37,426 bases of DNA from a virus, in the IMG/VR virus record IMGVR_UViG_3300042905_002178, positions 1 through 37,426 of that record; one strand, written 5' to 3'. The notes under the pieces were generated by a model. The model was not told where the DNA came from. It was given only the letters and a program-made list of their open reading frames with translations, and did not search any database. Positions within the stretch are counted from its first letter, which is position 1, and each line of letters starts with the position of its first letter. Positions 2,040 to 33,385 of this stretch are shown here, piece by piece. A program made the position numbers and the translations under genes.

Positions 2040-3032
2040 TCAGTCGAGGTCGTAGATGATCTTGCAGCCGTGCTCGTCGGTGTGCTCGGCGACCGACCAG
2101 CACCAACGACCCACGGCGAGGAGGGTGTCGTCGGAGAGGTCGTACTGGAAGCCGAGGCTCGGCTCGTAACGCTCCACCATTTCGGCGAAGCCGCGCACGG
2201 AGCCGGGGGTACCCGTCTCGCCACGGCCAGCGACGATGAGCGCGGCGACACGGTCGACGCCAGCGTTCGCGGTCTGCATGACGTTCTTGTTCGCGCTGTA
2301 GATCGGGATGCCGGCGAACGAACCACGGAAGCCGTTGCGGCTCGCGTCCGGGCGATGGTTGAAGAACGACACGTCACCGCTTCCGCCGCCGCCAAAGATG
2401 GCGGACAGCGACGCGCCAGTGCCCGACGCAGCGAGGGTGCGCAGATCGGCGAGGCCCTGCTCTTCGAGCACGAAGACGAGGTCTTCCGACGACGGGTTGT
2501 TATCCATGACCTTCAACAGCGCGTCGAGGAGGGTCGCAAACGACAGCGGCTGGTTGGTCGTGCCGGCCGACTCCGACAGACCCGAGAAGAGGGCGAGGGC
2601 GTCAGTCTCAGCGCGGAGGTAGTGGGCCTCGAGGATCTCGGTGATGGCGTCACGCACGAGCGGCAGCGCACCGGGGTTGTTTCCCTCGATGGCGCTGATC
2701 ACCTGGCTGCGCGGCACACCGGGGAGCGCGAGTTCGACGGCGTCAGCGGTGAGCTGGATGCCCTGAACCTTGGTCGTCGGGGTGATGCTGATGTTCGCCT
2801 GAACGCCAAGCGCGGCGGGGTTGCTGAACGCAATGCCCTCGCTGTCGTCGACAGCGGCGGCAATCGCGGACTTCTTCCGGATCTTGCGCACCTTGGAGGC
2901 GCGGCCGCTGATGTCGGCCATGTTCAGGAAGGGCAAGAGGACGTACTTGCCGCGAAGCGGATCAAGCGCAAGCTGCGACATGACCTCGGTGAGAATCCAA
3001 TTTGCGACGGTCGTGCTGCTAGAGACGGGCAT
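2040..3032 (-). CDS. Major capsid protein, probable HK97 fold
   Basis: This 330-residue protein follows directly after a scaffold-like gene and is followed by a strong terminator, the usual setting of a major capsid gene. The N-terminus (residues 1-55) looks like the N-arm region, and residues 120-150 resemble the long spine helix (VRDAITEILEAHYLRAETDALALF). The C-terminal half contains beta segments ending in a Cys/Trp-containing region near residues 306-324. The length fits HK97-type capsid proteins, with no delta-domain or protease attached. The ATG at 3032 is preceded by AGGTGA. I assign it by gene order and overall pattern, not by a single diagnostic motif. Confidence 0.85.
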   Translation of the reverse strand: MPVSSSTTVANWILTEVMSQLALDPLRGKYVLLPFLNMADISGRASKVRKIRKKSAIAAAVDDSEGIAFSNPAALGVQANISITPTTKVQGIQLTADAVELALPGVPRSQVISAIEGNNPGALPLVRDAITEILEAHYLRAETDALALFSGLSESAGTTNQPLSFATLLDALLKVMDNNPSSEDLVFVLEEQGLADLRTLAASGTGASLSAIFGGGGSGDVSFFNHRPDASRNGFRGSFAGIPIYSANKNVMQTANAGVDRVAALIVAGRGETGTPGSVRGFAEMVERYEPSLGFQYDLSDDTLLAVGRWCWSVAEHTDEHGCKIIYDLD

Positions 3033-3058: not shown

Positions 3059-3715
3059 TCAAGCGTTTTGCGCCTTGTTCGCCGACGAGAATCGCCCGAC
3101 GCCAAGGGAGGGCGAACCGCCGTTGCGGTTCGCCAAAACTCGATTGAAAAACGCCGACACCGCGCCGGGGTCGCGCTTCTTGATCTCGGCCAGCTTCGCG
3201 CCGCTCTTGTCCGCAAGCGCGGCCTCGATATCGACGGCAGACACCGGAGCCGGCGCACCCATCGGCGGGGGCTGGCCCTTGACGGGTGCCGCGCTCGACG
3301 TGGCGCGGAAAGCAGCAAGTACCTTGCGGCGGGCCTCGACATCGGAGGCAGTCGCGTAGAGGTCACGCACCGCTTCCGGCAATGCGGCAGCTTCAGCGTC
3401 GAGGCGCTTGGCCTCTTCGGCCTCATAGCTACGCCACTTCTGCGCCAGCGGCTCAAGCCCCTCCAACTCCGCCAGACGCGCCTTGGCTGCCTCGTAGGCC
3501 TTGGCCATCTCGCCCGCCGCCTCCGCCTCCGCCTGAAGGCGCTTGCGCTCCTCACGGGCAGCCTGCTTGGCGCTGGCCTGTTCCGCTTTCAGGGCCGCCA
3601 GTTCAGCGGCGGCGGCCTTGAGCGCGTCGAGGTCCACGACGTCAGGTGACGGGGCAGCAGAGCCCGCTACAGGCTCTGTGAGAGGGGTTTGCGCGGCATC
3701 GCCGGAGATGGTCAT
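3059..3715 (-). CDS. Capsid scaffolding protein
   Basis: This 218-residue protein has an Ala/Glu/Lys-rich coiled coil from about residue 30 to 115, a Pro-rich linker near residues 145-160, and a short charged C-terminal helix. Scaffolding proteins of HK97-like phages look like this: they line the inside of the procapsid and bind the capsid protein through their C-terminus. The gene is immediately upstream of the major capsid gene with a 26-base gap. No separate prohead protease is seen near it. The ATG at 3715 has no ribosome-binding site; a palindromic element and a possible -10 (TAGACT, minus strand) lie just upstream, so the message may be leaderless. Confidence 0.8.
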   Translation of the reverse strand: MTISGDAAQTPLTEPVAGSAAPSPDVVDLDALKAAAAELAALKAEQASAKQAAREERKRLQAEAEAAGEMAKAYEAAKARLAELEGLEPLAQKWRSYEAEEAKRLDAEAAALPEAVRDLYATASDVEARRKVLAAFRATSSAAPVKGQPPPMGAPAPVSAVDIEAALADKSGAKLAEIKKRDPGAVSAFFNRVLANRNGGSPSLGVGRFSSANKAQNA

Positions 3716-3727
3716 GCGGGCAGTCTA

Positions 3728-3743
3728 CTGCACCATAGTGCAG
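3728..3743. promoter_or_regulatory. CTGCA-N6-TGCAG palindrome, copy A
   Basis: This is a 16-bp palindrome (CTGCACCATAGTGCAG) 13 bases upstream of the scaffold start. On the minus strand it lies between a possible TTGCGC -35 and TAGACT -10 spaced by 18 bases. A second palindrome of the same design begins 31 bp away, close to three helical turns, as expected for cooperative binding of a regulator. Confidence 0.6.
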
Positions 3744-3757
3744 ACGCGCAACCTGGA

Positions 3758-3779
3758 CCTGCACTCTTTTGCAGTTGAC
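3758..3779. promoter_or_regulatory. 22-bp late-operon element, copy B
   Basis: This 22-bp sequence matches 17824-17845 at 19 of 22 positions and contains the CTGCA-N6-TGCAG palindrome followed by TTGAC. Both copies lie directly upstream of the first gene of a leftward structural segment: scaffold here, connector at 17.8 kb. A shared operator or activator site for late transcription is the simplest reading. Confidence 0.65.
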
Positions 3780-16470: not shown

Positions 16471-16919
16471 GTGCTGTACCTCACTTCAAGAGTCATTCGG
16501 AGTCGGCGAGCACCGCTCACCTGCTCCACAGTGTAGGGCGCTACGTCGGTCCCTGCTGGCGTGACAGCGACGATGCCGCTCGTAGCGCGGTCCCAGTTGG
16601 ACCCGAGGGCGAATGCCGCCGCAAGTTGCGCGGCGTCGGTCGGGATGGCCTCGTCGATAGCCGAGGTGTTGCCGACGCTGTCGACGTACTCGACGACGAT
16701 CTCCCATGTCAGCCGATGCCGGGTCTGCTGCACCTGGTATGGCCCCTCGGCTGCACCCGACAACACGCGCCCCCACCATCGGCGCGACTGCGTACCGACC
16801 GTCTCGTCATGGCCCGCCACATCGTGCGTAAAGCGCGACGGGAGCCCACGCGAGACGACGGCAGGGGTGATGCCGCCGGGGATCGCCACAAGGGCGCGGC
16901 GGGCATCCTGCCACGTCAA
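16467..16919 (-). CDS. Tail completion/terminator-type protein (150 aa)
   Basis: The start is TTG at 16919, overlapping the upstream stop as TTGA, with a GAGG site upstream. The N-terminal helix MTWQDARRALVAIP and the following mixed alpha/beta sequence (RRWWGRVLSG, TWEIVVEYVD) match the size and pattern of tail terminator or minor tail proteins (lambda U-like, HK97 gp10-adjacent types) that cap the tail and join it to the head. It lies between the connector-type and tail tube genes, as expected. Confidence 0.7.
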   Translation of the reverse strand: MTWQDARRALVAIPGGITPAVVSRGLPSRFTHDVAGHDETVGTQSRRWWGRVLSGAAEGPYQVQQTRHRLTWEIVVEYVDSVGNTSAIDEAIPTDAAQLAAAFALGSNWDRATSGIVAVTPAGTDVAPYTVEQVSGARRLRMTLEVRYST

Positions 16920-17821
16920 CGTGAAATCCTCATGAAGCGCGGGCCTTGCGAGCCCGGCGTCGGAATCTCCGGCGTGACCTCGTCCTGCGAGCGGGTGATG
17001 AGGTCGATCCGGTCGTAGGTGGTCTGCTTGATCTGCTCGTAGCTGGCTTCAAGGCGCGACACGAATTCCGACGGCGCGGCTGGCCACTGGCGGGCGAGGT
17101 GGACCACCGTGGCGGCGGCGTGCATGGGCACGAGCACGTCGTCGGTAAGCACGTCTTCATCGAGGATGCCTCGCGCCGCAAGCGCCGGGACGAGAACCAT
17201 CCGCCATGAGGCTTGGATGGCCTCCTCGAGGGTGAGGTCTGACGATGACGCAATCTGCCGGACGACGGGGTAGGATTGCGTCAACTCTGTCGGCGACAGC
17301 GCAATCGACGTGATGCGCCGGACGACCCGAAAGGACTCGTCCCATTCACGGACGACGCCGTCGACCGTGGCGCGGAAGAGCACATAGCCCGCGCCGGGCT
17401 CGATGGTCTGTGCTGCCGTCAGGGCCACAGACACCGCCAGACCGCTCACAGTCGACGCATGGCCGATGTCGCAGGGCAGGGGCTCGGCAAGCCACAAAGT
17501 CGACAGGGTGCCACTACGGGCCGCGACAACCACCACCGGGCGGGCGCTTGATGAGTCGGTGACGAGATAGCGCCGGCCGGCGACGATTGCGACCGACGCC
17601 GCAAGGGGCAGACTGTCCGCACCCTCTGGCACCGCGCCTTGCGTCGTCGTCGACAGCGGATCGACCGTAGCGGCGACGTAGACACCGAGAGCATCGGGAG
17701 ACTGCGACGGGATGCGTCGCGCCGTCGCCGACGAGGGAATGCCGGTCGAGACACCGCCATCCGTCGACAGGCGCGGATACGACAGGATCGTGTCTGTGGA
17801 GCCGACCAGCACGCGCTGCAT
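16916..17821 (-). CDS. Head-tail connector/adaptor-type protein (301 aa)
   Basis: ATG at 17821 is preferred over an in-frame GTG at 17830. The N-terminal 190 residues are beta-rich. The C-terminal 110 residues are helical (LTLEEAIQASWRMVLVPALAARG, then a long helix ending in KQTTYDRIDLITRSQDE), a pattern seen in head-completion adaptors (SPP1 gp15/HK97 gp6 type). No clear ribosome-binding site precedes the start. Instead the 22-bp late element with a TATAGT-like sequence lies a few bases upstream, so transcription may begin very close to the start codon. It is the first gene after a strong terminator. Confidence 0.68.
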   Translation of the reverse strand: MQRVLVGSTDTILSYPRLSTDGGVSTGIPSSATARRIPSQSPDALGVYVAATVDPLSTTTQGAVPEGADSLPLAASVAIVAGRRYLVTDSSSARPVVVVAARSGTLSTLWLAEPLPCDIGHASTVSGLAVSVALTAAQTIEPGAGYVLFRATVDGVVREWDESFRVVRRITSIALSPTELTQSYPVVRQIASSSDLTLEEAIQASWRMVLVPALAARGILDEDVLTDDVLVPMHAAATVVHLARQWPAAPSEFVSRLEASYEQIKQTTYDRIDLITRSQDEVTPEIPTPGSQGPRFMRISR

Positions 17822-17823
17822 GG

Positions 17824-17845
17824 CCTGCACTATAATGCAGTTGAC
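17824..17845. promoter_or_regulatory. 22-bp late-operon element, copy C
   Basis: It matches 3758-3779 at 19 of 22 positions and contains CTGCACTATAATGCAG followed by TTGAC. On the minus strand it includes TATAGT, a reasonable -10, about 10 bases before the connector gene's ATG. Position between a terminator and the first gene of a segment fits a promoter/operator. Confidence 0.65.
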
Positions 17846-17865
17846 GGCTTGGCGCTACCTGTGCG

Positions 17866-17908
17866 CAAAAACGCGCCCCCGGTCACCGCACCATGCGGAG
17901 CCGGGGGC
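17866..17908 (-). terminator. Intrinsic terminator after the HK97-gp10-like gene
   Basis: An 8-bp GC stem (17875-17882 with 17901-17908) encloses a nested short hairpin in the loop, and on the minus strand it is followed by GCGTTTTTG. It lies 28 bases past the stop codon of the upstream gene and separates the head-packaging genes from the connector/tail genes. Confidence 0.8.
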
Positions 17909-18552: not shown

Positions 18553-19368
18553 TCACCTCCGTTGCAGAGCCATTGTCTCAGCGTCGATGATGAGCCTGGA
18601 CCCATCGGGCCGATAGATCTCGATGCCCTCACGGACCGCCGTCTCTACCGTCGTCGGTGCCCAGCTATGACGGCAGTTGTACCCGCCGCAGTAGTCGTCG
18701 GCAGGAAGCCCCTGTCCGTTGTCGAGGCGGGCCGGGTCCGTGACCGCCTTGCCGACCCACGTTCGACAGAAGGGCCGGTTCTTCGCGTCGCGTGGCCCGA
18801 CGTAGACGTAGACGAGGTCGAGTTCCGCCTCAACCTCACGGGCCGCAGAGATGACGGACCGCCGACCCACCGCCATGATAGCGGCATCGACTGCGGCCGA
18901 CGCACGGACATACGTCGTCGACAGTCGCGCCCGCACCTCTTCGATGACGTCGGCAAGCGACTCACTGGACGTGATGCCGCGAGACACGGCGTCGCGCATC
19001 TCCTCACGGGCCAACCTGAAAACCGCGACGACGTCGGCGACTTGGCCGTTAACGATGGCGTCTAACTCTCGTCGTGCATCGACCGATAGCGCCGAAGGAG
19101 GCGTACCCAAGACAGCGGCGACGGCTTCGATGGCGCGTTGTCCGACAACACCGCGTACCGTTTCCCCCTCGGCTTCCAGTCGGCGACGTACCTGCGAGAG
19201 GACAGCCGCTGAAGTCTGCGCCTGTCGGCGGACGAGGCTGTCCTCTCCGGGGACGGTGTCGAGGGACAAGAGGATTCGGAGCAGGTCGCGCTCAAGTGCC
19301 ACCTCAAGACGTCGCAGATCCTCGACGGCGGCATCGGCGACGACGCCGGCAGCATCTGCCCCGCTCAC
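18553..19368 (-). CDS. Phage head morphogenesis protein (SPP1 gp7 / Mu F-like, 271 aa)
   Basis: The start is GTG at 19368, overlapping the portal stop as GTGA. A long helical N-terminus (residues 1-180) leads into the conserved C-terminal motif: DAKNRPFCRTWVG (Cys201), then YCGGYNCRHSW (Cys227, Cys232, His234, Trp236). This Cys/His motif defines the minor head protein family, whose members bind the portal and enter the procapsid in a few copies. Gene order terminase-portal-gp7 is conserved. No protease or ADP-ribosyltransferase domain is fused. Confidence 0.88.
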   Translation of the reverse strand: MSGADAAGVVADAAVEDLRRLEVALERDLLRILLSLDTVPGEDSLVRRQAQTSAAVLSQVRRRLEAEGETVRGVVGQRAIEAVAAVLGTPPSALSVDARRELDAIVNGQVADVVAVFRLAREEMRDAVSRGITSSESLADVIEEVRARLSTTYVRASAAVDAAIMAVGRRSVISAAREVEAELDLVYVYVGPRDAKNRPFCRTWVGKAVTDPARLDNGQGLPADDYCGGYNCRHSWAPTTVETAVREGIEIYRPDGSRLIIDAETMALQRR

Positions 19369-20912
19369 GACGTGGCCTCATCCTCTTCCTCGTCCTCTTC
19401 CTCGACGACGGTTGTCTCTCGCCGCGCCGTGAACGGCGAACCCGCCAATGCGCCGGGCAGACTGACCTGTGGCGCACGGACGGCCCGCATCTGCTCAAGG
19501 TACGCTTCCGCCGTCGCACGGTCGGCAGACAAGCCCAGCATCACGCGAGCATCGGCCTCGTCGATGAGCCCGGCTTCCTTGAGCGCCAGCACACGATCCT
19601 GCTTCTCTTGATCGGCCTCATAGGTCTTGCCGGTCGACAGCGTGACCATCGGCTTGACGTCGCCAAACTCATCGGGGCTCTGTGGATCAAACAAGCGCAA
19701 CACGTCGACGACGATTGGCAGAAGCTGGCCCTCTTCGAACGCCTTGAAGATGGGTCGGCTTTCCGCAACGCGCTGGTCATGCGGTGCATTCGCGATCATG
19801 CGTGACACGCCGGACTGCGGCGCACCGGGTTCGACGGCGTAGGCGTCTGGGCTGTTGCCTCGCGACACGCCGAGTTCTTGCAGGTCGCGTGTTGCGCTGG
19901 CCTCGATGGCGGCATGGTCCGCGCCGGCAGTCTGTGCTTGCAGCGTCTCGCCGGACCCGATTTGCAGGACGACACCTGGACCGCCGACAAGTTCGCTCGT
20001 CTCGCGAGTGAGGCCGCTGTAGACCCACGTTGCATGGGCCTGCATGTCGACGACGTGCTGCCGATTGGACCGCGACACGTTCAGCCTGTCGACGTTGGCC
20101 ACGACGTCACGGTCAGGGTCAGGCCAGATACCGCCAGCGCCGGGCTCGATACGAAGGAACGCGCCGGGGAAGCGGCCTTCGTATGCCTCCGACGCCGTCG
20201 CAGTCTTGCCGTCCTCCGACACGCGCCGATGCGACCACGCGCCGAACGACACGAGATTGCCGGCATCGTCCTCGACAAACTCCCGTGACCACACCCACCA
20301 CAAAGGCGACGCCGACGACGGCGTGGCTTGCTTGATGGCGCACAGCCACAAGGCATCGGGGTCATCGGGGGCCGATGGGTGCGCCAGCGTGACGACGTCG
20401 TGCGTCCAGTAGATCTGGCAAACCAGCTTGCCGATGTCGCCAATGCGTCGCCAGCCAATCATGGCAAACGACGCACGAACGCCAGCGTGGCAGCGCCGTT
20501 CCATCTCTGGCATGACGACGTCGATGCCGGCCTCGTCAAGCCCACGGCGGAAGGCGACAAGGCGCTCGTCCTCTTCGTCCAGCGCCTCGCCCTCGTCGTC
20601 GACAAGGGTGCGGTCCGCTGGCGTGGCGTAGACGCCGCTGTCCTGTCGAGCGAAGAACCGAAGCCAGTTGACGGGGTCAATCGGCAATTGCTGGTAAGTG
20701 CGGGGATAGGCCTTTTTCAGCGCGTCGCGAATGACGCTGGCCTGGTCGCCCGAGTAGCGCACCGCAAGCCCCTTGACGACGCTGTCATAGTCGGCGGGTC
20801 GGGTCTTGCGGCCAGCGTCGAGCAACGCCGACAACTGGTCTGGCATCCATGCGCCGGCCTGCTGTCGGATTGTCTCGATCACGGCATCGCTTGCGGCGTT
20901 GTAGGAAATCAT
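19365..20912 (-). CDS. Portal protein (515 aa)
   Basis: Size, position after the large terminase and before the head morphogenesis gene, and the sequence pattern fit a DUF935 (Mu gp29) or SPP1 gp6-like portal. The N-terminal half contains YPRTYQQLPIDPVNWLRFFARQ and the segment EMERRCHAGVRASFAMIGWRR; the region around residues 285-370 would form the clip/stem and crown. The C-terminus is an acidic run of Glu and Asp (about residues 500-512). Twelve copies would form the DNA-entry ring at one capsid vertex. The ATG at 20912 has an AGGG site. Confidence 0.82.
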   Translation of the reverse strand: MISYNAASDAVIETIRQQAGAWMPDQLSALLDAGRKTRPADYDSVVKGLAVRYSGDQASVIRDALKKAYPRTYQQLPIDPVNWLRFFARQDSGVYATPADRTLVDDEGEALDEEDERLVAFRRGLDEAGIDVVMPEMERRCHAGVRASFAMIGWRRIGDIGKLVCQIYWTHDVVTLAHPSAPDDPDALWLCAIKQATPSSASPLWWVWSREFVEDDAGNLVSFGAWSHRRVSEDGKTATASEAYEGRFPGAFLRIEPGAGGIWPDPDRDVVANVDRLNVSRSNRQHVVDMQAHATWVYSGLTRETSELVGGPGVVLQIGSGETLQAQTAGADHAAIEASATRDLQELGVSRGNSPDAYAVEPGAPQSGVSRMIANAPHDQRVAESRPIFKAFEEGQLLPIVVDVLRLFDPQSPDEFGDVKPMVTLSTGKTYEADQEKQDRVLALKEAGLIDEADARVMLGLSADRATAEAYLEQMRAVRAPQVSLPGALAGSPFTARRETTVVEEEDEEEDEATS

Positions 20913-20954
20913 GCCGCAACCCTACCACGCCAAAAGTCAAGCGGAAACACCCGG

Positions 20955-22274: not shown

Positions 22275-22787
22275 CTATTTCCGGTCGGCGGTCGTGACCA
22301 CCGCAGGCACCCAATCCACCACGTCGACCGTGTCCGGCGCGTCGGCCACCGTGCGTCCAGGCGGCCCGTAGCGGGCAGGGTCGAGGGCCGCCAGCATGGC
22401 GAGGATGGCGGCACGGTCGCCGTCGTCCGCTAGGGCTGCTAGGCGCTCCTCAAGTTCTTCGATGGACGGTCGCCGCCAGTTGGCTCCCATCGCCACCATG
22501 GTCCCGTTGTCGCGGTGCTCGGGCTCCCATCGTGCGTGAGGCGCTAGGGCGATGTCGAGGATCATCTTTGCCGCTGCGTTGCGATCCTTGCTGTCGGCCT
22601 CGACGACAGAGAGGCGCTCGGCGTCGGTGAGGTCCGGCACGACGTCGGGGTTGCCGACGGCTTTGGCGTACTGGACGCGCAAGATGTGATCGGTCGCCGT
22701 GCGGAGCCAGCGAGAGAGAGGCAGGCGATCAGACGCCCGCCCGGAACCGGGACGGGGAGGGGACGGCATAGGCAAGCATCTTGCCAT
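22275..22787 (-). CDS. Probable small terminase subunit (170 aa)
   Basis: The gene ends 6 bases before the large terminase start, the usual place of the small subunit. The product has a helical region (residues 25-110, including TDHILRVQYAKAVG and a LTDAERLSVVEADSKDRNAAAK segment) and an Ala/Asp-rich helix near residues 110-140; small terminases are helical with a DNA-binding N-terminus and an oligomerising centre. The start is uncertain: ATG at 22787 or 22769, neither with a ribosome-binding site, and a terminator hairpin lies just upstream, which excludes the longer frame. No clear helix-turn-helix is visible, so assignment rests on position. Confidence 0.6.
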   Translation of the reverse strand: MARCLPMPSPPRPGSGRASDRLPLSRWLRTATDHILRVQYAKAVGNPDVVPDLTDAERLSVVEADSKDRNAAAKMILDIALAPHARWEPEHRDNGTMVAMGANWRRPSIEELEERLAALADDGDRAAILAMLAALDPARYGPPGRTVADAPDTVDVVDWVPAVVTTADRK

Positions 22788-22794
22788 ATTGGCA

Positions 22795-22826
22795 CAAAAA
22801 AACAAACCCCCGACACCATGCCGGGG
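22795..22826 (-). terminator. Intrinsic terminator upstream of the probable small terminase
   Basis: An 8-bp stem with one G-U pair (22808-22815 with 22819-22826), a 3-base loop and a TTTGTTTTTTT tract on the minus strand. It would stop read-through from the primase-helicase message, or end a transcript made within the non-coding region. Confidence 0.8.
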
Positions 22827-22891
22827 ATCGTTTGCCTTGTCAGGGCTCCATCGTGGGCGTTGTGTAGCGCGTGGTGGCGATGGAGGCAACG

Positions 22892-22924
22892 ACAAAAACC
22901 AAACCCCGCCAGCGCAGGCGGGGT
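22892..22924 (-). terminator. Intrinsic terminator in the non-coding region
   Basis: A stem of about 8 bp (accccgcc at 22903-22910 with ggcggggt at 22917-22924) with a 6-base loop, followed on the minus strand by a T-rich run (TTTGGTTTTTG). It lies about 80 bases before the next terminator, so this region holds tandem stop signals. Confidence 0.7.
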
Positions 22925-23077
22925 CCAGTCGCGATCCGGTGGGGTGTCCGGTGCTCGCCAACCCGCCGAGAGACGGTAGCGGGGTGGCGTGGGTGGGAGG
23001 CTAGCAGCAATCACCCGCCAGATCAATTCTTCCAATCCGTTGGACCACACGGTCGATAACTGGCCCGCATCACCACC

Positions 23078-23188
23078 GTAACATCGTAACCCCCCTAAAG
23101 GGGGGGGTTACGTTACGTTACGCTGTGAGTGCCTTTGCCACCGTAGCAGTTACCACCTGTTACCGTCCTGTTACGTTACGTTACGCTG
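23078..23188. repeat. GTTAC iteron cluster with two identical 19-bp copies
   Basis: GTTAC occurs eight times in direct orientation and twice inverted within 111 bases. Two exact copies of GTTACGTTACGTTACGCTG lie at 23107-23125 and 23170-23188, exactly 63 bp apart. The second overlaps the stop codon of the primase-helicase gene. Iterons next to a replication gene often mark an origin. Confidence 0.75.
23085..23112 (-). terminator. Strong hairpin after the primase-helicase gene
   Basis: An 11-bp stem (cgtaacccccc at 23085-23095 with ggggggttacg at 23102-23112) encloses a 6-base loop. It incorporates three GTTAC/GTAAC repeat units. No T-run follows on either strand, so it may be a DNA or RNA structural element as well as a terminator. 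Confidence 0.55.
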
Positions 23189-25154
23189 AACCTTTGGCCA
23201 GTATCAGACCCGAAGCCCGCATCGGGTCGATCACGATCCAACCGTGGTCTTTTGCCGAAATGAACCCGGCATCGAGCAGATCACGGATCACGGACCCCGG
23301 TCGGGCGCTTGGCTTGACTGCTTGGTCGATGGTCGACGCCTTCCAGCCGTCGCGTTCCAAGTGCTGACGCAACGCAGCTCGAGTGAGATACGGGGCTCCG
23401 TCCAGAGTCTCGGCCTTGGACTCAAACCACGCCCGCTCAAAGGTCTTCCTGTGCTTGGACCCGGCTGGCTCTTTTTCGCGCACTGGCGGGGCATCTGATG
23501 CTGCCAGAACGGCGCTTGTGACGGGTGCGCCGTCTTCATCGACCCAACCAGGGATCGCGACGCTGGCCAGTCGGGCATGGATGGGGGCCAGCATCTCGGC
23601 GTCCTTCGACTTCCGCTGTGCAATCGTGATCGTGCCGTCCTTGGACGTAACCGACACCTCGATGTCGAGGGCTCCCCGCCATGCTGACGACCCACGGGCT
23701 CGACCCTGTGCTTCCTCGTTGACGCCGGTGTGATGCACTAGCAGGACAGAGCAACTGAACGTGGCCATCAGCGCCGCGCACGAATCCAACATCTCCTTGG
23801 CGTCTTGTGCGCTGTTCTCGTCGCCGGACAGAAACCGATGGAGGGTGTCGACGACGATCAGAGACGGCCGCACGGACAACGCCGCTATGGAGTCACGCGC
23901 CTTGATCAACCCTGCTTGCGTGTCGAGGTCGCAACCCGACGACGACAGCAACAGGTTCCCTCGAGGGATCGGGCCATTGGTGGTCTGCCACGCCGCCAGA
24001 CGACCGCGCAGTCCGTGGTGACCCTCGCCAGCGAGGTAGACGACCGCGCCGGGCTTGACCTTGGCTCCCATCCAATCGGGGAGGCCCGACGCCATGCGGC
24101 AACACCAGTCCAGGACGACGAAGGTCTTGCCGGACCCGCTGGGGCCGTGAACCATCATCAGGGCTTGCGATTGTGCCCAGCCCTTGATCAGCCATGAGAT
24201 AGGGGCAGGCTGTGCCGAAAAATCGACGGCATCGACGAGCCAGTCGCCGGCCGACGGCGTCAGAAGTGCGGCGAGGTCTTGACCGGCTTGAACGTAGTCG
24301 TTGGCGTCGCCGGGGATCGGCGGAATCACATAGCGAACGCCATGCTTGGCGCAGGCTTGCTCAGCGGCACGAAGCCCGACGTGGCCCTTGTCGTTGTCGG
24401 CGACGATGGTGATCCGATTGCCATACAGCCCCACAAGCAAGCCGGCGACGTCGACGAGGTTGCTTGCGCTGTAAGCAATGACGCACGGTCGGCCCGTGAC
24501 TTCGTGGACCGTTGCCGCCGTGGCGAACCCCTCGGCGAGATAGATGACGCCATCGGACGGCTTGCCGACCATCCAAAACTTGGCCTTGACTTCGCCACCA
24601 GGGTGATACCGCTTGCCGCCGTCGCCCTCGATGTATTGCAGGCTTGAGATGCCGCCGTCGACGTCAAACAGCGGCACCACCAACTTGCCATCCGAGGTCA
24701 CCTTGCTTCCGTGCGGCTTGACGCCCTTGCGTTGCAGGTATGGGTGATCGGCGGGTGCCTCGGGCAACTCGGACCAAACCTGCTCCACCACCTCGGCGAC
24801 GACCTCACGCTGGCGAGCCAGCTCGGCGTCGCGAATCGCCCGCATGTCGGCCATGCGCTTGGCATGTGCCACCTCCTCGGCGGGGGTCATCGACGGCCCG
24901 CCCTCGGCTCGCCATGACACGTCAATCTGACGACGCCAGCACCCGAAGTGCCCAGCCGGTCGCCCGTCGCTGTAGGCGATGTACCAGCCGTTTTTGGCCC
25001 GACTGGCGTCCGACCTGAACCGATGAATCTTGCCGTCGAGAGTCACCGATGACGGCGGATTGATTCCCTCGTAGGCGATGGCGTCGATCAGTTGCTGCTC
25101 TGGCGTCCTGTCGTCGACGAAAGCGGGGACAAAGGCGCGATCAAGCTTGACCAT
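23181..25154 (-). CDS. TOPRIM primase-like / RecA-like helicase replication protein (657 aa)
   Basis: The N-terminal 140 residues are a region seen in plasmid and phage primases. A TOPRIM-like domain follows: Glu208-Gly209 (LAEGFATA) and Asp253-x-Asp255 (VADNDKG), with a PPIPGDANDY segment after it. The C-terminal half is a RepA-type (AAA_25, RecA-like) ATPase with Walker A at 337-344 (GPSGSGKT), Walker B Asp436 (LIVVDT) and HHTG at 474-477. The last 90 residues are a winged-helix-like domain. It would unwind and prime phage DNA. ATG at 25154 lies within the end of the HTH regulator gene (14-base overlap). It is leftward, unlike the recombination genes. Confidence 0.9.
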   Translation of the reverse strand: MVKLDRAFVPAFVDDRTPEQQLIDAIAYEGINPPSSVTLDGKIHRFRSDASRAKNGWYIAYSDGRPAGHFGCWRRQIDVSWRAEGGPSMTPAEEVAHAKRMADMRAIRDAELARQREVVAEVVEQVWSELPEAPADHPYLQRKGVKPHGSKVTSDGKLVVPLFDVDGGISSLQYIEGDGGKRYHPGGEVKAKFWMVGKPSDGVIYLAEGFATAATVHEVTGRPCVIAYSASNLVDVAGLLVGLYGNRITIVADNDKGHVGLRAAEQACAKHGVRYVIPPIPGDANDYVQAGQDLAALLTPSAGDWLVDAVDFSAQPAPISWLIKGWAQSQALMMVHGPSGSGKTFVVLDWCCRMASGLPDWMGAKVKPGAVVYLAGEGHHGLRGRLAAWQTTNGPIPRGNLLLSSSGCDLDTQAGLIKARDSIAALSVRPSLIVVDTLHRFLSGDENSAQDAKEMLDSCAALMATFSCSVLLVHHTGVNEEAQGRARGSSAWRGALDIEVSVTSKDGTITIAQRKSKDAEMLAPIHARLASVAIPGWVDEDGAPVTSAVLAASDAPPVREKEPAGSKHRKTFERAWFESKAETLDGAPYLTRAALRQHLERDGWKASTIDQAVKPSARPGSVIRDLLDAGFISAKDHGWIVIDPMRASGLILAKGSA

Positions 25155-25338
25155 CGGTGGCTCCCTTCAGATAGAGGGCGATCACAGCGACAGTCGCCGG
25201 AGACGGAGTCGTGACGCCATGCATGAGTCGATAGAGCGTGTCGTTGCTGAGTCCGGTGGCCTTGGCCACGGCTGAAAGGTTGTGATCGCGCAGACGCCTG
25301 CGGATCTCCTCGATGGTGATCTGTCGTGTGTCGTTCAT
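25141..25338 (-). CDS. Small HTH regulator (65 aa)
   Basis: A helix-turn-helix of XRE/Cro type spans about residues 18-45 (LSAVAKATGLSNDTLYRLMHG), followed by a PSPATVAVIALYL helix. The protein is close to the minimum size of Cro-like regulators. It diverges from the recombination operon and its start is only 3 bases from the -35 of the rightward promoter, so it probably represses that promoter and perhaps its own. It is co-transcribed with the primase-helicase gene. No integrase accompanies it, so a lysogeny role is not supported. Confidence 0.85.
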   Translation of the reverse strand: MNDTRQITIEEIRRRLRDHNLSAVAKATGLSNDTLYRLMHGVTTPSPATVAVIALYLKGATDGQA

Positions 25339-25340
25339 GC

Positions 25341-25369
25341 TTGACGTTTGACGCAGATGCGGCTAGAAG
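25341..25369 (+). promoter_or_regulatory. Rightward early promoter
   Basis: TTGACG (25341-25346) and TAGAAG (25364-25369) are spaced by 17 bases, a sigma70-type arrangement about 50 bases before the Sak4-like gene start. The -35 is followed at once by a second TTGACG (25348-25353), a direct repeat that may be the HTH protein's operator. The 12-base segment GCTTGACGTTTG nearly recurs at the 30.2-kb promoter. Confidence 0.7.
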
Positions 25370-25421
25370 TCTACTCACAAGGCGCAACCCGATCACCGGA
25401 CCGCGCCACAATGGAGGCCAA

Positions 25422-26099
25422 ATGGCCATCAGTCTGAAGCGCACAGGCTCGCTCGGAGCTACTGCGGTTAAGTTTCTTGGATATGGTCCTGCAGGGCACG
25501 GCAAAACCCGCGCAATTGCGACGCTGCCGACTCCGATTACGCTTTCGGCAGAAGCCGGGTTGCTGTCGATCAAGGAGTTTGACCTTCCGTACATCGAGAT
25601 TGCGACGCTCGAAGACCTGTACGACGCATACCGTTGGGTGTCGTCGTCGGATGAGGCGAAGGGCTTTGAGAGTGTCGCGCTAGACAGCATTTCGGAGATT
25701 GCCGAGGTGCTGCTGTCGGCGGAGAAGAAGGTTCAAGTCGGCGGCAAGGCTCGCGACTTTCGCCAAGCCTATGGCGCGATGCAGGATCGGATGGGAGATC
25801 TCATCCGTGCCTTCCGAGATTTGCCCGGAAAGCATGTGTATTTCAGCGCCAAGCTGGAGAAGTCGGCGGATGAGCTTGGAGCCGTCTCATACGCGCCATC
25901 GATGCCGGGACAGAAGTTTGCCCAGCAGTTGCCCTATTTCTTTGACGAGGTTTTCGCCTTCCGCAAGGAGCAGGGGCACTTCGCATTGATGACGTCGACG
26001 GATGGTCTTTGGTCGGCGAAGGACCGCTCGGGTCGTTTGGATCTGTGGGAGCCGCCAGACCTCGGCGCAATTATCCGAAAGATTGCGGGGACGCCATGA
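25422..26099 (+). CDS. Sak4-like RecA-fold ATPase / single-strand annealing recombinase (225 aa)
   Basis: Walker A is at residues 22-29 (GPAGHGKT) and a Walker B-like strand ends at Asp88 (VALDSIS). A segment FSAKLEK near residue 150 follows the AAA_24 pattern. Sak4-type proteins are minimal RecA/Rad51 paralogs that anneal single-stranded DNA with the help of a phage ssDNA-binding protein, and such a partner is encoded two genes downstream. The ATG at 25422 has GGAGG upstream; a longer frame back to 25326 runs into the promoter and is rejected. It is the first gene of the rightward operon. Confidence 0.85.
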   Translation: MAISLKRTGSLGATAVKFLGYGPAGHGKTRAIATLPTPITLSAEAGLLSIKEFDLPYIEIATLEDLYDAYRWVSSSDEAKGFESVALDSISEIAEVLLSAEKKVQVGGKARDFRQAYGAMQDRMGDLIRAFRDLPGKHVYFSAKLEKSADELGAVSYAPSMPGQKFAQQLPYFFDEVFAFRKEQGHFALMTSTDGLWSAKDRSGRLDLWEPPDLGAIIRKIAGTP

Positions 26100-26473
26100 C
26101 ACTCGACGAGCTGACAGCGGCATGGCGCGAGGCCAAGGAAGCGGAGCGCGAAGCACAAGAGCGCCGCCGCGACATCGAGGATCAGATCACGGCGATGCTT
26201 GCCATCCCCGCCGACCTCGACGGCACCAGCACCTACGGCGCTCTCAAAGTCACGGGCCGCATTGACCGCAAGGTTGACGCCGATCTGTTGCAGGAGTTGG
26301 CACGGGATGCAGGGTTGACCGACCACCTGTCGGCGCTCTTCAGGTGGAAGCCGGAGATCAACAAAAAAGCGTGGGACGCAGCAGCAGATTCAATCACTCG
26401 CCCCCTTGCCGGGGCCATTACAAGCAAGCCAGGGCGACCCTCGTTTGCGATCACTGACAAGAAAGAAGGCTGA
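26096..26473 (+). CDS. Unknown protein of the recombination operon (125 aa)
   Basis: The start overlaps the upstream stop as ATGA. The N-terminal 40 residues form a charged coiled coil (AWREAKEAEREAQERRRDIE), followed by a small alpha/beta segment with GALKVTGRIDRKVDADLLQEL and FRWKPEINKKAW. Short proteins of this pattern are common between Sak4-like and DUF669-like genes in phages, which suggests a role with them in recombination, but I cannot name the family with confidence. Confidence 0.8.
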   Translation: MTLDELTAAWREAKEAEREAQERRRDIEDQITAMLAIPADLDGTSTYGALKVTGRIDRKVDADLLQELARDAGLTDHLSALFRWKPEINKKAWDAAADSITRPLAGAITSKPGRPSFAITDKKEG

Positions 26474-26476
26474 GCA

Positions 26477-26947
26477 ATGGCGAATCTTGGACGCAGCTAC
26501 GTTGAAGCAGAGATGCCAAAGGGCAGCAACAGCGGCGACTACACGCCGATCCCCGATGGGTGGTACGACGTCACCATCACTGAAGCCACCGTGAAGGCCA
26601 CGAAGGCGGGGACCGGCGATTACCTCTCCTACCGTTGCGACGTCGTCGGACCGACGCATCAGGGCCGGGTCGTTTTCGGAATGATTACGTTGCGAAACCC
26701 GAACCCGAAGGCGGAGGAAATTGGCAATCAGCAGATGGGCGAGCTGTGCCGTGCTATCGGTGCCGCTCGTCTCGACGACAGCGATCAGCTGATCGGAAAG
26801 CGCATGACGATCAAGGTCGTGACCGAAAGCAGTGAGCAGTACGGCGACAAGAACAAGATCAAGGCGATGAAGGCGAGCGGTGGCAATGCGCCGACGTCAT
26901 CAGCCGCCGCACCTGCTCCTGCCTCCAAGCCGCCGTGGGCGAAGTGA
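26477..26947 (+). CDS. DUF669-like single-stranded DNA-binding protein (156 aa)
   Basis: Features of the DUF669 family are visible: the N-terminal PIPDGWYDVTITEATVK segment, KAGTGDYLSYRCDVVGP, the GRVVFGMITLRNPNPKAEEIG core and GKRMTIKVVTES. The fold is an OB-like beta barrel. The last 30 residues are Ala/Pro/Ser-rich and end in PPWAK, reminiscent of the flexible tail and tip of SSB proteins. Such proteins act with Sak4 annealases. AAGG lies upstream of the ATG at 26477, and the order Sak4-unknown-DUF669 is conserved in many phages. Confidence 0.85.
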   Translation: MANLGRSYVEAEMPKGSNSGDYTPIPDGWYDVTITEATVKATKAGTGDYLSYRCDVVGPTHQGRVVFGMITLRNPNPKAEEIGNQQMGELCRAIGAARLDDSDQLIGKRMTIKVVTESSEQYGDKNKIKAMKASGGNAPTSSAAAPAPASKPPWAK

Positions 26948-27324
26948 TGACCGAAACCAAACGCCTCTACACTGTCACCGTCGAGTTCGACTTCGCCGTC
27001 ATGGCCGAGAGCGAATACGACGCCCGCAGTTACGCCAACGAAGCGCAGCGCGACCTCATGCTCGACGAGTTCGCGCACGCGACCCCGACCGTGAGCCGCC
27101 TGCCGACAGGCCGCTTCGTCGAGCGCCGCCCCGACGCCGAGGGTGAAAGCCTCGTCTACGGCACGGACGAGGACACGACGCTCAATGAAGCCGTCGCCGC
27201 CGAGAAGAAGCGGCTGGAAGCCGAAGCCCTCGCCGAGAAGCAGACCGATCTGTTCACGAAGGAGAAGCCGTTCATGAAGGCAGAAAATCCCATCATGGAA
27301 GTCGAGATCATCGAAAAACCCTGA
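26947..27324 (+). CDS. Unknown acidic protein (125 aa)
   Basis: ATG at 26947 overlaps the upstream stop as TGATG; an in-frame GTG 12 bases earlier is less likely. The N-terminal 50 residues have two beta strands around a helix (LYTVTVEFDFAVMAESEYDARSYANEA). The middle is charged and the C-terminal 40 residues are Glu/Lys/Ala-rich. No family is recognised. The gene ends before an intrinsic terminator and closes the first part of the recombination operon. Confidence 0.75.
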   Translation: MTETKRLYTVTVEFDFAVMAESEYDARSYANEAQRDLMLDEFAHATPTVSRLPTGRFVERRPDAEGESLVYGTDEDTTLNEAVAAEKKRLEAEALAEKQTDLFTKEKPFMKAENPIMEVEIIEKP

Positions 27325-27333
27325 CCCACAACC

Positions 27334-27360
27334 GGGGGTGCCCTTGGCCCCCTCTTTTTT
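27334..27360 (+). terminator. Intrinsic terminator within the recombination operon
   Basis: Five G-C pairs (27334-27338 with 27348-27352), a 9-base loop and CTTTTTT at the end. It would reduce, not abolish, transcription into the nuclease and helicase genes, because no obvious promoter lies between it and the next start at 27369. Confidence 0.75.
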
Positions 27361-27368
27361 GGTGATTC

Positions 27369-28217
27369 ATGACCGCCATTCCACCGCCTCGCACGACCAT
27401 TCAGTCCCTCATCGACGCCCACCACGAGCGCGGCCGGGAGCCGCCACGCCCGCACATGGGAGCCTCTGAGTTGGGTCACTCTTGCGACAAGTGGTTGTGG
27501 CTGAAGTTCCGTTGGGCCGTTGTCGAGCAAGTGCCAGGGCGCGTTCTGCGCGTCTTCCGTCGGGGCCACATGGAAGAGGCCACGATCCTGAAGGATCTTC
27601 GTGCCATCGGCATCGAGATTAGAGAGACGACTGGCGAGCAGACTCGCGTTTCGTTTGGCTCCCATGTGTCGGGCTCCGTCGATGCCATCATCGACGCTGG
27701 CGTTCCCGAAGCGCCGAAGAAGCCGCACGTCGCCGAGTTCAAGACGCATAGCTTGAAGTCCTTCAACGACGTCGAGAAGAACGGCGTCGAGAAAGCGAAG
27801 CGGACCCACTTCATTCAGATGCAGGTCTACATGCACGGGCTCGGCATCGACCGCGCCCTCTATGTCGCCGTGTGCAAGGACGACGACCGCATCTACACGG
27901 AGCGTGTCAGGTATGACCGCGACGTCGCCGAGAAAGCCATTGCACGGGGCAAGCGGTTGGCGCTTGCCGACGAGATGCCGCCGCCTTTGTCGCATGACCC
28001 CTCATGGTACGAGTGCAAGTGGTGCCCGGCCCACAAGGTCTGCCATGAGGGTCTAGGCGTCACCGCGCCGCAATCGTGCAGGACGTGCGCACATAGCACC
28101 GCCAAGGAGGACAACACCTGGCGATGCGAGAAGCACAACGCCGACGGAATCCCGCTTGGGTTTCAGCGCACGGGTTGCGCGGACTACGAATTGCACGATC
28201 ACCTGTTGCCGTTTTGA
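27369..28217 (+). CDS. Cas4/RecB-like PD-(D/E)XK nuclease with iron-sulfur cysteines (282 aa)
   Basis: The nuclease core is Asp105 (SGSVDAII), Glu123-x-Lys125 (VAEFKTHS) and Gln150/Gln152 (FIQMQVYMHG). Cys39 (GHSCDKWLW) plus Cys216, Cys219 and Cys225 (CKWCPAHKVC) match the four cysteines that hold a [4Fe-4S] cluster in Cas4/AddB-type nucleases. A further Cys set (237, 240, 253, 270) is in the last 50 residues and may form a zinc knuckle. It probably resects DNA ends for the Sak4-like annealase. GGTGA precedes the ATG. Confidence 0.88.
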   Translation: MTAIPPPRTTIQSLIDAHHERGREPPRPHMGASELGHSCDKWLWLKFRWAVVEQVPGRVLRVFRRGHMEEATILKDLRAIGIEIRETTGEQTRVSFGSHVSGSVDAIIDAGVPEAPKKPHVAEFKTHSLKSFNDVEKNGVEKAKRTHFIQMQVYMHGLGIDRALYVAVCKDDDRIYTERVRYDRDVAEKAIARGKRLALADEMPPPLSHDPSWYECKWCPAHKVCHEGLGVTAPQSCRTCAHSTAKEDNTWRCEKHNADGIPLGFQRTGCADYELHDHLLPF

Positions 28218-28223
28218 GGCCCC

Positions 28224-29840
28224 ATGCTTCGCCCCTACCAACAACGCGCCATCGACGAAACGCTGGCGTGGATCGCCAAAAACAAAGGCAACCCGTGCAT
28301 TGTCATGCCGACGGGGTCCGGCAAGTCTCACGTCGTCGCCGGCCTGTGCAAGCACACGATCCAGACGTGGCCAGAGACGCGAGTCTTGATGCTGACTCAC
28401 GTCAAGGAGTTGATTGAACAGAACATCGAGAAGATGCGCCAGCATTGGCCAGCCGCGCCAATGGGCGTCTACTCGGCCAGCATCGGCAAGCGCCAGCTCG
28501 GCGAGCCGATCACGTTCGCAGGCATCCAGTCAATCGCGACCCGCGCCGACGACGTTGGGCACATTGACCTTGTCGTCGTCGATGAATGCGACCTCATCAG
28601 CCACAACGATGAGGGGCGTTATCGGACCTTCCTTGGGCAACTGAAGACAATCAACCCGAACATGGTTGTAATCGGGCTGACGGCGACGCCATATCGTCTT
28701 GGCCACGGCATGATCACCGACGAGCCGGCGCTGTTTCATGGTTTGATTGAGCCGGTGGACGTCGTCGAGTTGCTGACCCTTGGCCACCTGTGCCCGTTGC
28801 GCCTGAAGAAGACGCAGCACACCTACGACACGTCATCCGTTCATAAGCGCGGCGGGGACTACATCGAGAGCGAGCTGCAGAAGGTCGTCGACACCGAGGA
28901 GCAAACACAGAAGGTCGTTGACGAGATTCTAGCGAATGCCACCGACCGCAAGTCTTGGGTGCTGTTCTGCACCGGCATCGACCACAGCCATCACGTCGCC
29001 GAAGCCCTTCGTGCCCGTGGGGTCACCTGCGAGACGGTGTCTGGCGAGACGCCGAAGGGAGAGCGAGAACGCATCCTGGCCGATTTCAAGGCCGGCAAGG
29101 TGACGGCGCTGACAAACGCCAACGTGCTCACGACGGGATTTGATCATCCACCTACGGACCTGATTGGCTTCCTGCGTCCGACGGCGTCGACGCGCCTCAT
29201 GATGCAGATGGCCGGCCGGGGCATGCGGCCATCGCCAGGGAAGGAGGACTGCATCGTTCTCGACTTTGCCGGTGTGTCGAAGGTCTGCGGCACGATTATC
29301 CGGCCCAACGTCCCCGGCAAGAAAGGCGACGGGAACGGTGAAGCGCCGGTCAAGGTCTGCGATGCTTGCAGCGAGCTGGTCCATTTGAGCGCCAAGGTCT
29401 GCCCTGCTTGTGGCGCGGCGTTCCCGGAGTCCAAGAAGGCATCCGAGCCAATCGACGTCCGGCTTATTGACGGCGACATCATGGGTCTGTCAGTCAACCC
29501 GGACGATTTGCGTGACGTCGAGGTGTCGTCATGGCGCTGGCAGATCAGACGCTCGCAAAAGACCGGCAAGGAACAGATCGCGCTGACGTACTACGGCAAG
29601 GCGATCAGCGACCGGCCGGTGACGGAGTATCTGTGCGTCTTCCATGAGGGCTACGCCGGCCAGAAGGCGTGGAGCACCGTCACCAGCATCGCCGAGCGTT
29701 GCGGAAAGCTGCCCGATGGGATCCTTGCCGATGGCGACGTGGTCGCCCTTGTCGAAGCCATGAACGCCGCCACACCGCCGACGTGGATTCAGTATGAGCG
29801 AGACGGCAACTTCGACCGCATCACAAGGAGGCACTGGTGA
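28224..29840 (+). CDS. Superfamily 2 DNA helicase with zinc ribbon (538 aa)
   Basis: Motif I is at residues 29-35 (PTGSGKS), motif II at 120-123 (DECD rather than DEAH), motif III TATP at 153-156 and motif VI QMAGRGMRP at 328-336. This is the SSL2/RadD-like type common in phage recombination sets. A CxxC-x10-CxxC zinc ribbon (Cys379, 382, 393, 396) follows the helicase core. The C-terminal 110 residues are beta-rich and unassigned. It overlaps the following nuclease gene as GTGA and shares its operon. It probably unwinds or remodels recombination or replication intermediates. Confidence 0.9.
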   Translation: MLRPYQQRAIDETLAWIAKNKGNPCIVMPTGSGKSHVVAGLCKHTIQTWPETRVLMLTHVKELIEQNIEKMRQHWPAAPMGVYSASIGKRQLGEPITFAGIQSIATRADDVGHIDLVVVDECDLISHNDEGRYRTFLGQLKTINPNMVVIGLTATPYRLGHGMITDEPALFHGLIEPVDVVELLTLGHLCPLRLKKTQHTYDTSSVHKRGGDYIESELQKVVDTEEQTQKVVDEILANATDRKSWVLFCTGIDHSHHVAEALRARGVTCETVSGETPKGERERILADFKAGKVTALTNANVLTTGFDHPPTDLIGFLRPTASTRLMMQMAGRGMRPSPGKEDCIVLDFAGVSKVCGTIIRPNVPGKKGDGNGEAPVKVCDACSELVHLSAKVCPACGAAFPESKKASEPIDVRLIDGDIMGLSVNPDDLRDVEVSSWRWQIRRSQKTGKEQIALTYYGKAISDRPVTEYLCVFHEGYAGQKAWSTVTSIAERCGKLPDGILADGDVVALVEAMNAATPPTWIQYERDGNFDRITRRHW

Positions 29841-30160
29841 AGACCGAACACGAAGAGCAACGCGAGTTCGTTCAATGGATGAGGCAGACGCATCCTACCG
29901 TCCGCATCTACGCGATCCCCAACGGAGGCCACCGTGGAGCGAGCCAGGGGGCCAGACTCAAGGCGGAGGGTGTCACGCCCGGTGTGCCCGATCTGCATGT
30001 CCCAGCTCTGCGGTTGTGGATCGAGATGAAGCGAACCGTCGGCGGCACAGTGAGCCGGGAGCAGCGCGACTGGCACGACTATCTGCGGGGGATCGGTGAT
30101 CGGGTGATCGTGGCGAAAGGGAAGGAAGAGGCGATCAGGGCGATCACAGATCTGCTCTGA
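29837..30160 (+). CDS. VRR-NUC family nuclease (107 aa)
   Basis: The stand-alone VRR-NUC pattern is complete: Glu10 in the first helix, AIPNGGHRG (26-34), LKAEGVTPGVPDL with Asp52, WIEMKR with Glu63 and Lys65, and a Gln in SREQRDW. These small PD-(D/E)XK enzymes act as structure-specific endonucleases and often sit next to a superfamily 2 helicase in phages. The GTG start has AGGAGG upstream, within the end of the helicase gene (GTGA overlap). It is the last gene before the second promoter. Confidence 0.9.
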   Translation: MKTEHEEQREFVQWMRQTHPTVRIYAIPNGGHRGASQGARLKAEGVTPGVPDLHVPALRLWIEMKRTVGGTVSREQRDWHDYLRGIGDRVIVAKGKEEAIRAITDLL

Positions 30161-30279
30161 CGCCGCATCCCAATGCGGCCACAGCATAATCTCACGCAAA
30201 CGCTTGACGCTTGCGTGGCGAGTGTGTAGGCTGTGGTTGTGGCCGGCAGGGGTGCCGGTCCGAAACAGGAGAGACGACA
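30161..30279. other. Intergenic control region between the recombination genes and the small-gene run
   Basis: This stretch holds the second early promoter, a 23-bp dyad and the ribosome-binding site of the next gene. No other frame is convincing. A short GC inverted repeat (ccggcagggg-tgccgg, about 30243-30258) follows the promoter and may structure the leader. Confidence 0.6.
30204..30232 (+). promoter_or_regulatory. Second rightward promoter
   Basis: TTGACG (30204-30209) and TAGGCT (30227-30232) are spaced by 17 bases, the same plan as the 25.34-kb promoter. The -35 lies inside a 23-bp imperfect dyad (30194-30216) with arms ACGCAA and TTGCGT. The segment GCTTGACGCTTG matches the other promoter at 11 of 12 positions, consistent with shared control by the HTH protein. 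Confidence 0.72.
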
Positions 30280-30444
30280 ATGCAGACCATCACCAACGCT
30301 CAGATCCGCGCCCTCCGCAACGAAGCCGCCGCCGCTGGCGACAGCGCCATGGTCCGCACCTGCGACCGCGCCATCGCCGGCAGCGCCCGCGCCATGACCA
30401 CGGTCCGCCGCGCCATTCGCGCCGCCGCCGCGATGGCCGACTGA
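30280..30444 (+). CDS. Small Ala/Arg-rich helical protein (54 aa)
   Basis: ATG at 30280 is set by AGGAGAGACGACA just upstream; the longer frame from 30211 would start inside the promoter. The product is almost wholly helical with Ala, Arg and Thr, net positive, and could bind nucleic acid. No family is recognised. It is the first gene under the second promoter and is followed by a weak hairpin. Confidence 0.7.
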   Translation: MQTITNAQIRALRNEAAAAGDSAMVRTCDRAIAGSARAMTTVRRAIRAAAAMAD

Positions 30445-30469
30445 CCCTCCCCCACAACCCGAACGCGCC

Positions 30470-30489
30470 GCCCCGTCTCAAGCCGGGGC
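30470..30489 (+). terminator. Weak hairpin after the first small gene
   Basis: A 6-bp GC stem (30470-30475 with 30484-30489) with an 8-base loop, followed by TTTGG. It may attenuate transcription into the downstream genes or protect the upstream message. Confidence 0.45.
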
Positions 30490-30510
30490 TTTGGCGTCAG
30501 GAGAGACACC

Positions 30511-30738
30511 ATGACCATGACCATCGCCGACCGCATCCTTACAAACCTTCTCGACAACGACGGGTGCGCCCGCAAGACCCGACTCGGTGTCGACCGCTAC
30601 GCCCTCGTGGCTCGCATCGGCACTCCGATGCGTGACCGCCTCGACAACGTCGTCGGCTGGGAGTTTTCCGACGGCAGCGAGATTGAGGAGTCGGGCGGCG
30701 GGTGGGACACCCCAGAGGGCTGGGCCGCCAACGTCTGA
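30511..30738 (+). CDS. Unknown 75-residue protein
   Basis: The ATG is preceded by CAGGAGAGACACC, a leader shared almost base for base with the next gene. Residues 1-30 are a helix (IADRILTNLLDNDGCARKTRL), followed by ARIGTPMRDRLDNVVGWEF and a short acidic, Gly-rich tail. The first part resembles a small winged-helix layout, but this is only a visual impression. Confidence 0.72.
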   Translation: MTMTIADRILTNLLDNDGCARKTRLGVDRYALVARIGTPMRDRLDNVVGWEFSDGSEIEESGGGWDTPEGWAANV

Positions 30739-30765
30739 CGCCAACACACCCACAGGAGAGACACC

Positions 30766-30966
30766 ATGACCGACGACAACATCCCCCCCGGCGCTGATCA
30801 CTACTGGGGCGCAGACCTCGACCTCCCCGACACTCACGACGACCCGCCCGAGGACGACCACCAGATCACCGACGAGCAAGCCGAGGCATGGGCTGCCGAG
30901 ATGGGCGAGGAGCGCGACCTCGAAGACGCGCTGGCCCAGCTCGCTGAAATCTACGGGGTGCTGTGA
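30766..30966 (+). CDS. Very acidic small protein, possible DNA mimic (66 aa)
   Basis: The product has 13 Asp and 8 Glu but only one Arg and no Lys, so a net charge near -20. The last 25 residues form an acidic helix (AEMGEERDLEDALAQLAEIY). Small, extremely acidic early phage proteins often mimic DNA and block restriction or other DNA-binding enzymes (Ocr, Gam-like and Ugi-type cases). The location in an early small-gene run agrees, but this is inference from charge only. CAGGAGAGACACC precedes the ATG. Confidence 0.72.
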   Translation: MTDDNIPPGADHYWGADLDLPDTHDDPPEDDHQITDEQAEAWAAEMGEERDLEDALAQLAEIYGVL

Positions 30967-31055: not shown

Positions 31056-31076
31056 ATGGGAAAAGGGAGAGACACA

Positions 31077-33373: not shown

Positions 33374-33385
33374 GAGGAGCACATC

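Follow-up and report, generated by a model that had tools for sequence, protein, structure and literature searches.

Palindromes within predicted leaderless late promoters of a phage lineage as putative operators of a trans-acting repressor

The analyzed DNA, a viral record of 37,426 bases hereafter called the window, carries three copies of the palindrome CTGCA-N6-TGCAG, all of them located in gaps ahead of the first gene of a structural segment and all preceding genes of the minus strand. Their assignment as putative operators within late promoters is well supported, and we consider it probable that a single trans-acting repressor uses them as its operators to control the late (virion) genes. 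The following sites were computed:

3728-3743: proximal operator palindrome (putative), CTGCAC-N4-GTGCAG, reading CTGCACCATAGTGCAG, in the spacer of the scaffold promoter, with its centre 20 nt before the ATG
3759-3774: distal operator (putative), CTGCA-N6-TGCAG, 31 bp upstream of the proximal one, with its centre 51 nt before the ATG and a GTCAAC flank
17825-17840: operator (putative), CTGCA-N6-TGCAG, overlapping the -10 element of the promoter of gene 16916-17821, with its centre 11 nt before the ATG

A pattern search of the whole genome returned these three exact copies, none of them inside a gene and none elsewhere. Sequences simulated from a first-order Markov model of the window contained 0.06 copies on average, and none of the 150 had more than 1; a control with the pattern read backwards gave 0 matches in the window. 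When one mismatch was allowed, a single extra site appeared (27809, within a gene), and with two mismatches the count equaled that expected by chance (23 observed, 21.7 expected); only exact copies of the palindrome therefore carry signal. The preliminary description of this DNA had placed 22-bp sites at 3758-3779 and 17824-17845, identical at 19 of 22 bases, with a further palindrome offset by 31 bp (the start of 3728-3743 lies 31 bp before 3759), and all of this was borne out by the sequence. The similarity of the 22-bp sites extends as GTCAAC on one flank of the palindrome, and a third copy, in the opposite orientation at 3723-3744, matches the other two at 17 and 18 of 22 bases.

The genes that follow the palindromes are these:

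3059-3715, minus strand: putative scaffold gene, 218 aa, first of the capsid segment, its role deduced from the capsid gene that follows immediately
2040-3032, minus strand: putative major capsid protein, 330 aa, its role deduced from position and conservation
16916-17821, minus strand: gene at the head of the second structural segment, 301 aa, with a predicted leaderless start, the real start being the ATG at 17821

Neither the putative scaffold protein nor the putative capsid protein matched Pfam or PHROGs, and the product of gene 16916-17821 gave no Pfam match. On the coding (minus) strand, the predicted scaffold promoter reads TTGCGC-18 bp-TAGACT-6 nt-ATG (3715), with the palindrome in the spacer, and that of gene 16916-17821 reads TAGCGC-17 bp-TATAGT-7 nt-ATG (17821), with the palindrome over the -10 element. 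The single elements, together with that of a third predicted promoter, are as follows:

3746-3751, minus strand: scaffold -35 element TTGCGC, read from the sequence, with TTGCGC, TTGCAC, TTGACN or similar there in relatives
3722-3727, minus strand: scaffold -10 element TAGACT, 6 nt before the ATG at 3715
17852-17857, minus strand: -35-like element TAGCGC of the gene 16916-17821 promoter, with TAGCGC or TGGCGT at 17 bp in relatives
17829-17834, minus strand: -10 element TATAGT, within the operator and 7 nt before the ATG at 17821
20919-20924, minus strand: portal -10 element TAGGGT of a third predicted leaderless late promoter, 6 nt before the ATG of the portal gene (19365-20912)

In high-GC bacteria, leaderless genes are by general agreement recognized by a TANNNT element about 12 bp before the start (PMC3160421). 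In the window, TANNNT stands 6-7 nt before the start of three of the 54 predicted genes, namely portal (20912), gene 16916 and scaffold, all heads of late segments, and none of these starts is preceded by a Shine-Dalgarno-like motif; the background of the same test at all ATG triplets is 0.7%. Since the -10 elements of these predicted sigma70-type promoters lie only 6-7 nt before the start codon, the mRNAs of the scaffold-capsid and tail segments are probably leaderless, which hints at a host in which such genes are common. We infer promoter activity and leaderless starts from this arrangement, which the scaffold gene of the relatives retains (TTGNNN-17/18-TANNNT-6/7-ATG) while the spacer and its palindrome change. 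The -35 elements of the late promoters are weak matches, and owing to the weakness of the one near 17.8 kb a simple sigma70 scan did not detect a promoter there. Just upstream of the gene 16916-17821 promoter (17862-17905, minus strand) we also observed a terminator-like hairpin, CCCCCGG...CCGGGGG followed by CGCGTTTTT, whose loop is too long for the terminator scan used; it may insulate the tail segment. At the portal promoter of the window (20913-20924, minus strand), the leaderless -10 element is present and the CTGCA operator is absent; a conserved TTGACTTTTGGCGTGG is found just upstream.

The placement of the -10 elements also bears on whether the palindromes function as hairpins at the mRNA level. 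They are perfect inverted repeats with arms of 5-6 bp, but a -10 element just before the ATG puts the palindrome upstream of the transcript, the palindrome of the second promoter itself contains the -10 element, and there is no T run after the palindromes. An RNA role is therefore extremely improbable.

In the IMG/VR search, the capsid protein found 24 loci and the capsid alignment 44. Among the relatives, the palindrome pair before the scaffold gene was computed to be conserved at the exact 31-bp spacing in L004-L007 and L011 and at 32 bp in L013/G009; in L008 the distal palindrome differs by two bases and the proximal one is kept. Relatives whose capsid identity is as low as 83% still retain pair and spacing. 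G001, G005, G007 and G009 also have the third site, ahead of their homologue of gene 16916-17821. The three-site set is exact in G001 and G009, G007 has one mismatch at the distal site, and G005 has two exact sites and a distal copy with two mismatches. A stringent pattern of this third site, i.e., the one at the second segment (21 fixed bases), matched 19 IMG/VR stretches, two of them from already known relatives, and in each of the 19 a 69-99% identical homologue of gene 16916-17821 follows. The putative operator is thus kept across a whole lineage, and the earlier suggestion that it is specific to this phage does not hold, the same sites being found in at least six close relatives. In one further relative, a class A (CTGCA-type) operator lies directly before the portal gene (L127:3882-3897), which indicates that the class A set can include the third late promoter.

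In more distant relatives, the same promoters carry STTAYRTAAS in place of the CTGCA palindrome. This class B motif also occurs before the portal gene, where the window has no class A site, and there it is lengthened to GCGSTTAYRTAASCGC. Most motif copies in class B genomes precede one of three genes, namely portal, scaffold or the gene-16916 homologue, and some of the scaffold sites are off by one or two bases. Furthermore, genome G018 contains two TTGCCA-N3-TGGCAA palindromes about 32 bp apart, and no clear common palindrome was recognized in G019. The class A and class B motifs were never found together in one genome, and the scaffold site and the gene-16916 site were of the same motif class in all 18 genomes in which both could be read. 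According to this computation, the sites have been replaced jointly at promoters up to 14 kb apart, which points to one trans-acting protein reading several sites. Two features of repressor operators are therefore found here: the sites are conserved and change in concert at all promoters of the putative regulon (18 of 18 genomes concordant, motifs mutually exclusive), and the palindromes overlap core promoter elements.

The class A phages are close kin in most of their structural genes. Three changes are required to place class A on the capsid tree, but a single class A clade is not firmly rejected (AU p = 0.079); independent operator switches have therefore been few. The operator class follows structural and tail genes, not replication genes. 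The structural modules themselves (scaffold-capsid-lysis and gene 16916-tail) are in swapped order between class A and class B, as seen by comparing the window with G006, G011 and G013, and each swapped module keeps its own promoter and operator at its head. It could be argued from this that the palindromes, which mark the module heads, are recombination points of module exchange with no regulatory function. However, the palindrome found at this place in other lineages is a different one, its position being set by the promoter and not by the joint, and the second copy at a fixed 31-bp spacing would be left unexplained, so that we regard this reading as very unlikely.

The distance between the palindrome and the start codon differs from promoter to promoter. 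The palindrome centre lies 30-31 nt before the start codon at the class B portal promoter (on the -35 element), 25-26 or 20 nt before that of the scaffold gene (in the spacer) and 10-11 nt before that of gene 16916 (on the -10 element), while the distal class A palindrome is centred 51-52 nt before the start codon. A fixed contact with RNA polymerase would not tolerate such variable geometry, whereas a repressor that blocks access would, and the binding protein is thus most likely a repressor. The preliminary description had left the choice between a late-gene operator and an activator site, and of these the operator is favored by sites that lie within late promoters and are kept in relatives; an activator site is less likely because its distance to the start codon ranges between about 51 and 10 nt and because it mostly covers core promoter elements. 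Late activators are often used by lytic phages, and one made early in infection could act from the distal site, whose distance of 51 nt from the start is possible for an activator. Nevertheless, the other sites lie on the -35 element, in the spacer or on the -10 element, with positions varying between promoters by up to 20 bp, most promoters carry a core-overlapping site only, and the spacers are 17-18 bp long and not 19-20 bp as known for MerR-type activators. We therefore consider a late-gene activator quite unlikely.

Under the preferred repressor reading, a repressor dimer bound to the 16-bp palindrome would cover the spacer between the -35 and -10 elements (scaffold) or the -10 element (gene 16916-17821) and in this way block RNA polymerase. 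A second dimer could occupy the distal scaffold site three helical turns upstream, presumably on the same face of the DNA (31 bp correspond to 2.95 turns at 10.5 bp per turn). Release of the repressor would then switch the scaffold-capsid and tail segments on together. We infer both repression and its timing from the placement of the sites.

The location of the repressor gene can be narrowed by comparing close relatives. The replication segment (window 22275-34352) has been exchanged between near-identical phages, the window and G031 having one version and G001 and G003 the other. The primase/HTH65 segment of the window is related to phages of Idiomarinaceae, Alteromonas and Salicola; G001 has another early segment, with HTH83, yet the same operators as the window. 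Because close relatives with identical operators have exchanged this segment, the repressor gene is probably not part of it; as judged from these genomes, it is either located in the shared part of the genome or host-encoded. Within the segment, a C/G-run hairpin (cccccctaaaggggggg) beside repeated GTTACGTTACGTTACG units was noticed at 23080-23195, in the gap between the terminase small subunit and primase genes.

A phage-encoded repressor could be the RHH (ribbon-helix-helix), the HTH (helix-turn-helix), the zinc-binding (33726-34352) or the 51-aa (32541-32696) protein, and we regard this form of the one-repressor model as possible but doubtful. When RHH, HTH65, HTH83, the zinc protein and the methyltransferase were compared across the relatives, none of these phage genes tracked the operator class. 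Two of the candidates are the following:

32380-32544, plus strand: RHH-like protein of 54 aa, which does not track the operator
25141-25338, minus strand: Cro-like HTH protein (HTH65), 65 aa, which does not track the operator

The RHH protein, which the preliminary description had proposed as the binder, is found in five of the seven class A genomes, but it is missing from G005, G007 and the 32-kb record G036, all of which have the same operator, and we therefore do not retain it. Its structural model is RHH-like, with one strand-like end and two helices (pLDDT 88), and gave no significant PDB match; only its G018 relative reaches a Pfam RHH family (NikA-like). HTH65 is present only in the window, G031 and G005, and a 39% match to it occurs in the class B genome G008. 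HTH83 has a class A-type recognition helix in the class B genome G027 and near-identical recognition helices in class B and class D genomes. The DNA methyltransferase of the class B genome G024 is 94% identical to that of the window. These three were rejected as binders, as was the zinc-binding protein, which occurs in all class A genomes but also in the class B genomes G025 and G027. The latter (208 aa) contains several CxxC zinc-type motifs, has no Pfam match, is shared by class A, by class D and by a part of the class B relatives, and its fold model is poor (pLDDT 55). A family scan of the right-hand genes additionally gave a Mom-like DNA modification match, most likely in 34256-34867, which overlaps 33726-34352.

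By presence, only two genes fit class A. The 51-aa gene 32541-32696 is found in seven of seven class A genomes and also in the class D genome, while all 15 class B genomes lack it, which speaks for a phage-encoded repressor; its product, however, looks like a short coiled coil and not like a DNA binder. The second, the patatin-like gene 35983-36831, is present in all class A genomes and G019 and in no class B genome, and its product is not DNA-binder-like. This patatin-like phospholipase gene adjoins the lysis genes.

Since no tested phage gene tracks the operator, a host-encoded repressor is a serious option within the same one-repressor model. The repressor would then be LexA-like or another host regulator, each lineage carrying the operator of its host, and we hold this to be a real, if tentative, possibility. 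The association of the operator class with structural and tail genes instead of replication genes speaks in its favor. The proximal site matches TGCNC-N4-GTGCA, which we take to be the Fibrobacter LexA box, but two of the three window sites miss this box by one base. Moreover, a phylum usually keeps its LexA box unchanged, yet these closely related phages show three unrelated palindromes. A search for hosts with the capsid alignment found no relative in 84,980 bacterial species genomes, and cultured phages provided no capsid relative and only distant relatives of the terminase and replication genes. There is a precedent in GIL01, where host LexA, together with gp7, represses the late promoter P3 by way of LexA boxes arranged in tandem downstream of the -35 element (PMC6182141). 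Carried further, the host-repressor reading would have the late genes held off by a host protein whose operator each lineage copied from its own host into two or three leaderless late promoters; the operator would follow the host-range and not the replication modules, and replicating phage DNA could titrate the host protein, giving late timing with no late activator. This extended scenario is speculative, and we judge it unlikely.

Outside model phages, little is known about how virion genes are delayed in lytic phages that have no recognizable late activator. In the present case the sequence by itself yields a compact late regulon of two or three promoters with one putative operator each, in which a possible dependence of late timing on a host repressor can be tested. 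The occurrence of at least three operator specificities among close relatives makes the repressor findable, by DNA pull-down and by comparison across the classes.

The operators of lambdoid CI and Cro are palindromes of about 16 bp that overlap core promoter elements and control early promoters beside the repressor gene. The palindromes described here are similar in length and also lie over core promoter elements, but they are found at late structural promoters, with no copy near an HTH gene. As in leaderless genes of high-GC bacteria (PMC3160421), TANNNT lies before the ATG with no Shine-Dalgarno motif, in the window at 6-7 nt, although the predicted leaderless form is limited here to the heads of late segments. 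In Cluster A mycobacteriophages (L5, Bxb1), repressor sites are spread phage-wide, and their lineage-specific sequence changes in concert (PMC6550527). The sites of the present lineage likewise form a set of putative, lineage-specific repressor sites changing in concert. However, the Cluster A stoperators are asymmetric 13-bp sites, up to about 30 per genome and mostly outside promoters, whereas two to three palindromes per genome occur here, nearly all inside late promoters; the window, with only three palindromes before two genes, does not show the many asymmetric 13-bp sites in one orientation of a stoperator system. A parallel in layout is P3 of GIL01, likewise a late promoter, which serves capsid and lysis genes, carries two palindromic sites for its repressor and is freed from repression when the virion genes are to start (PMC6182141). 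No integrase was among the families listed for the window. In contrast to GIL01, which is temperate and has a known repressor, the late genes described here have a predicted leaderless start, and their putative operators change in concert between lineages.
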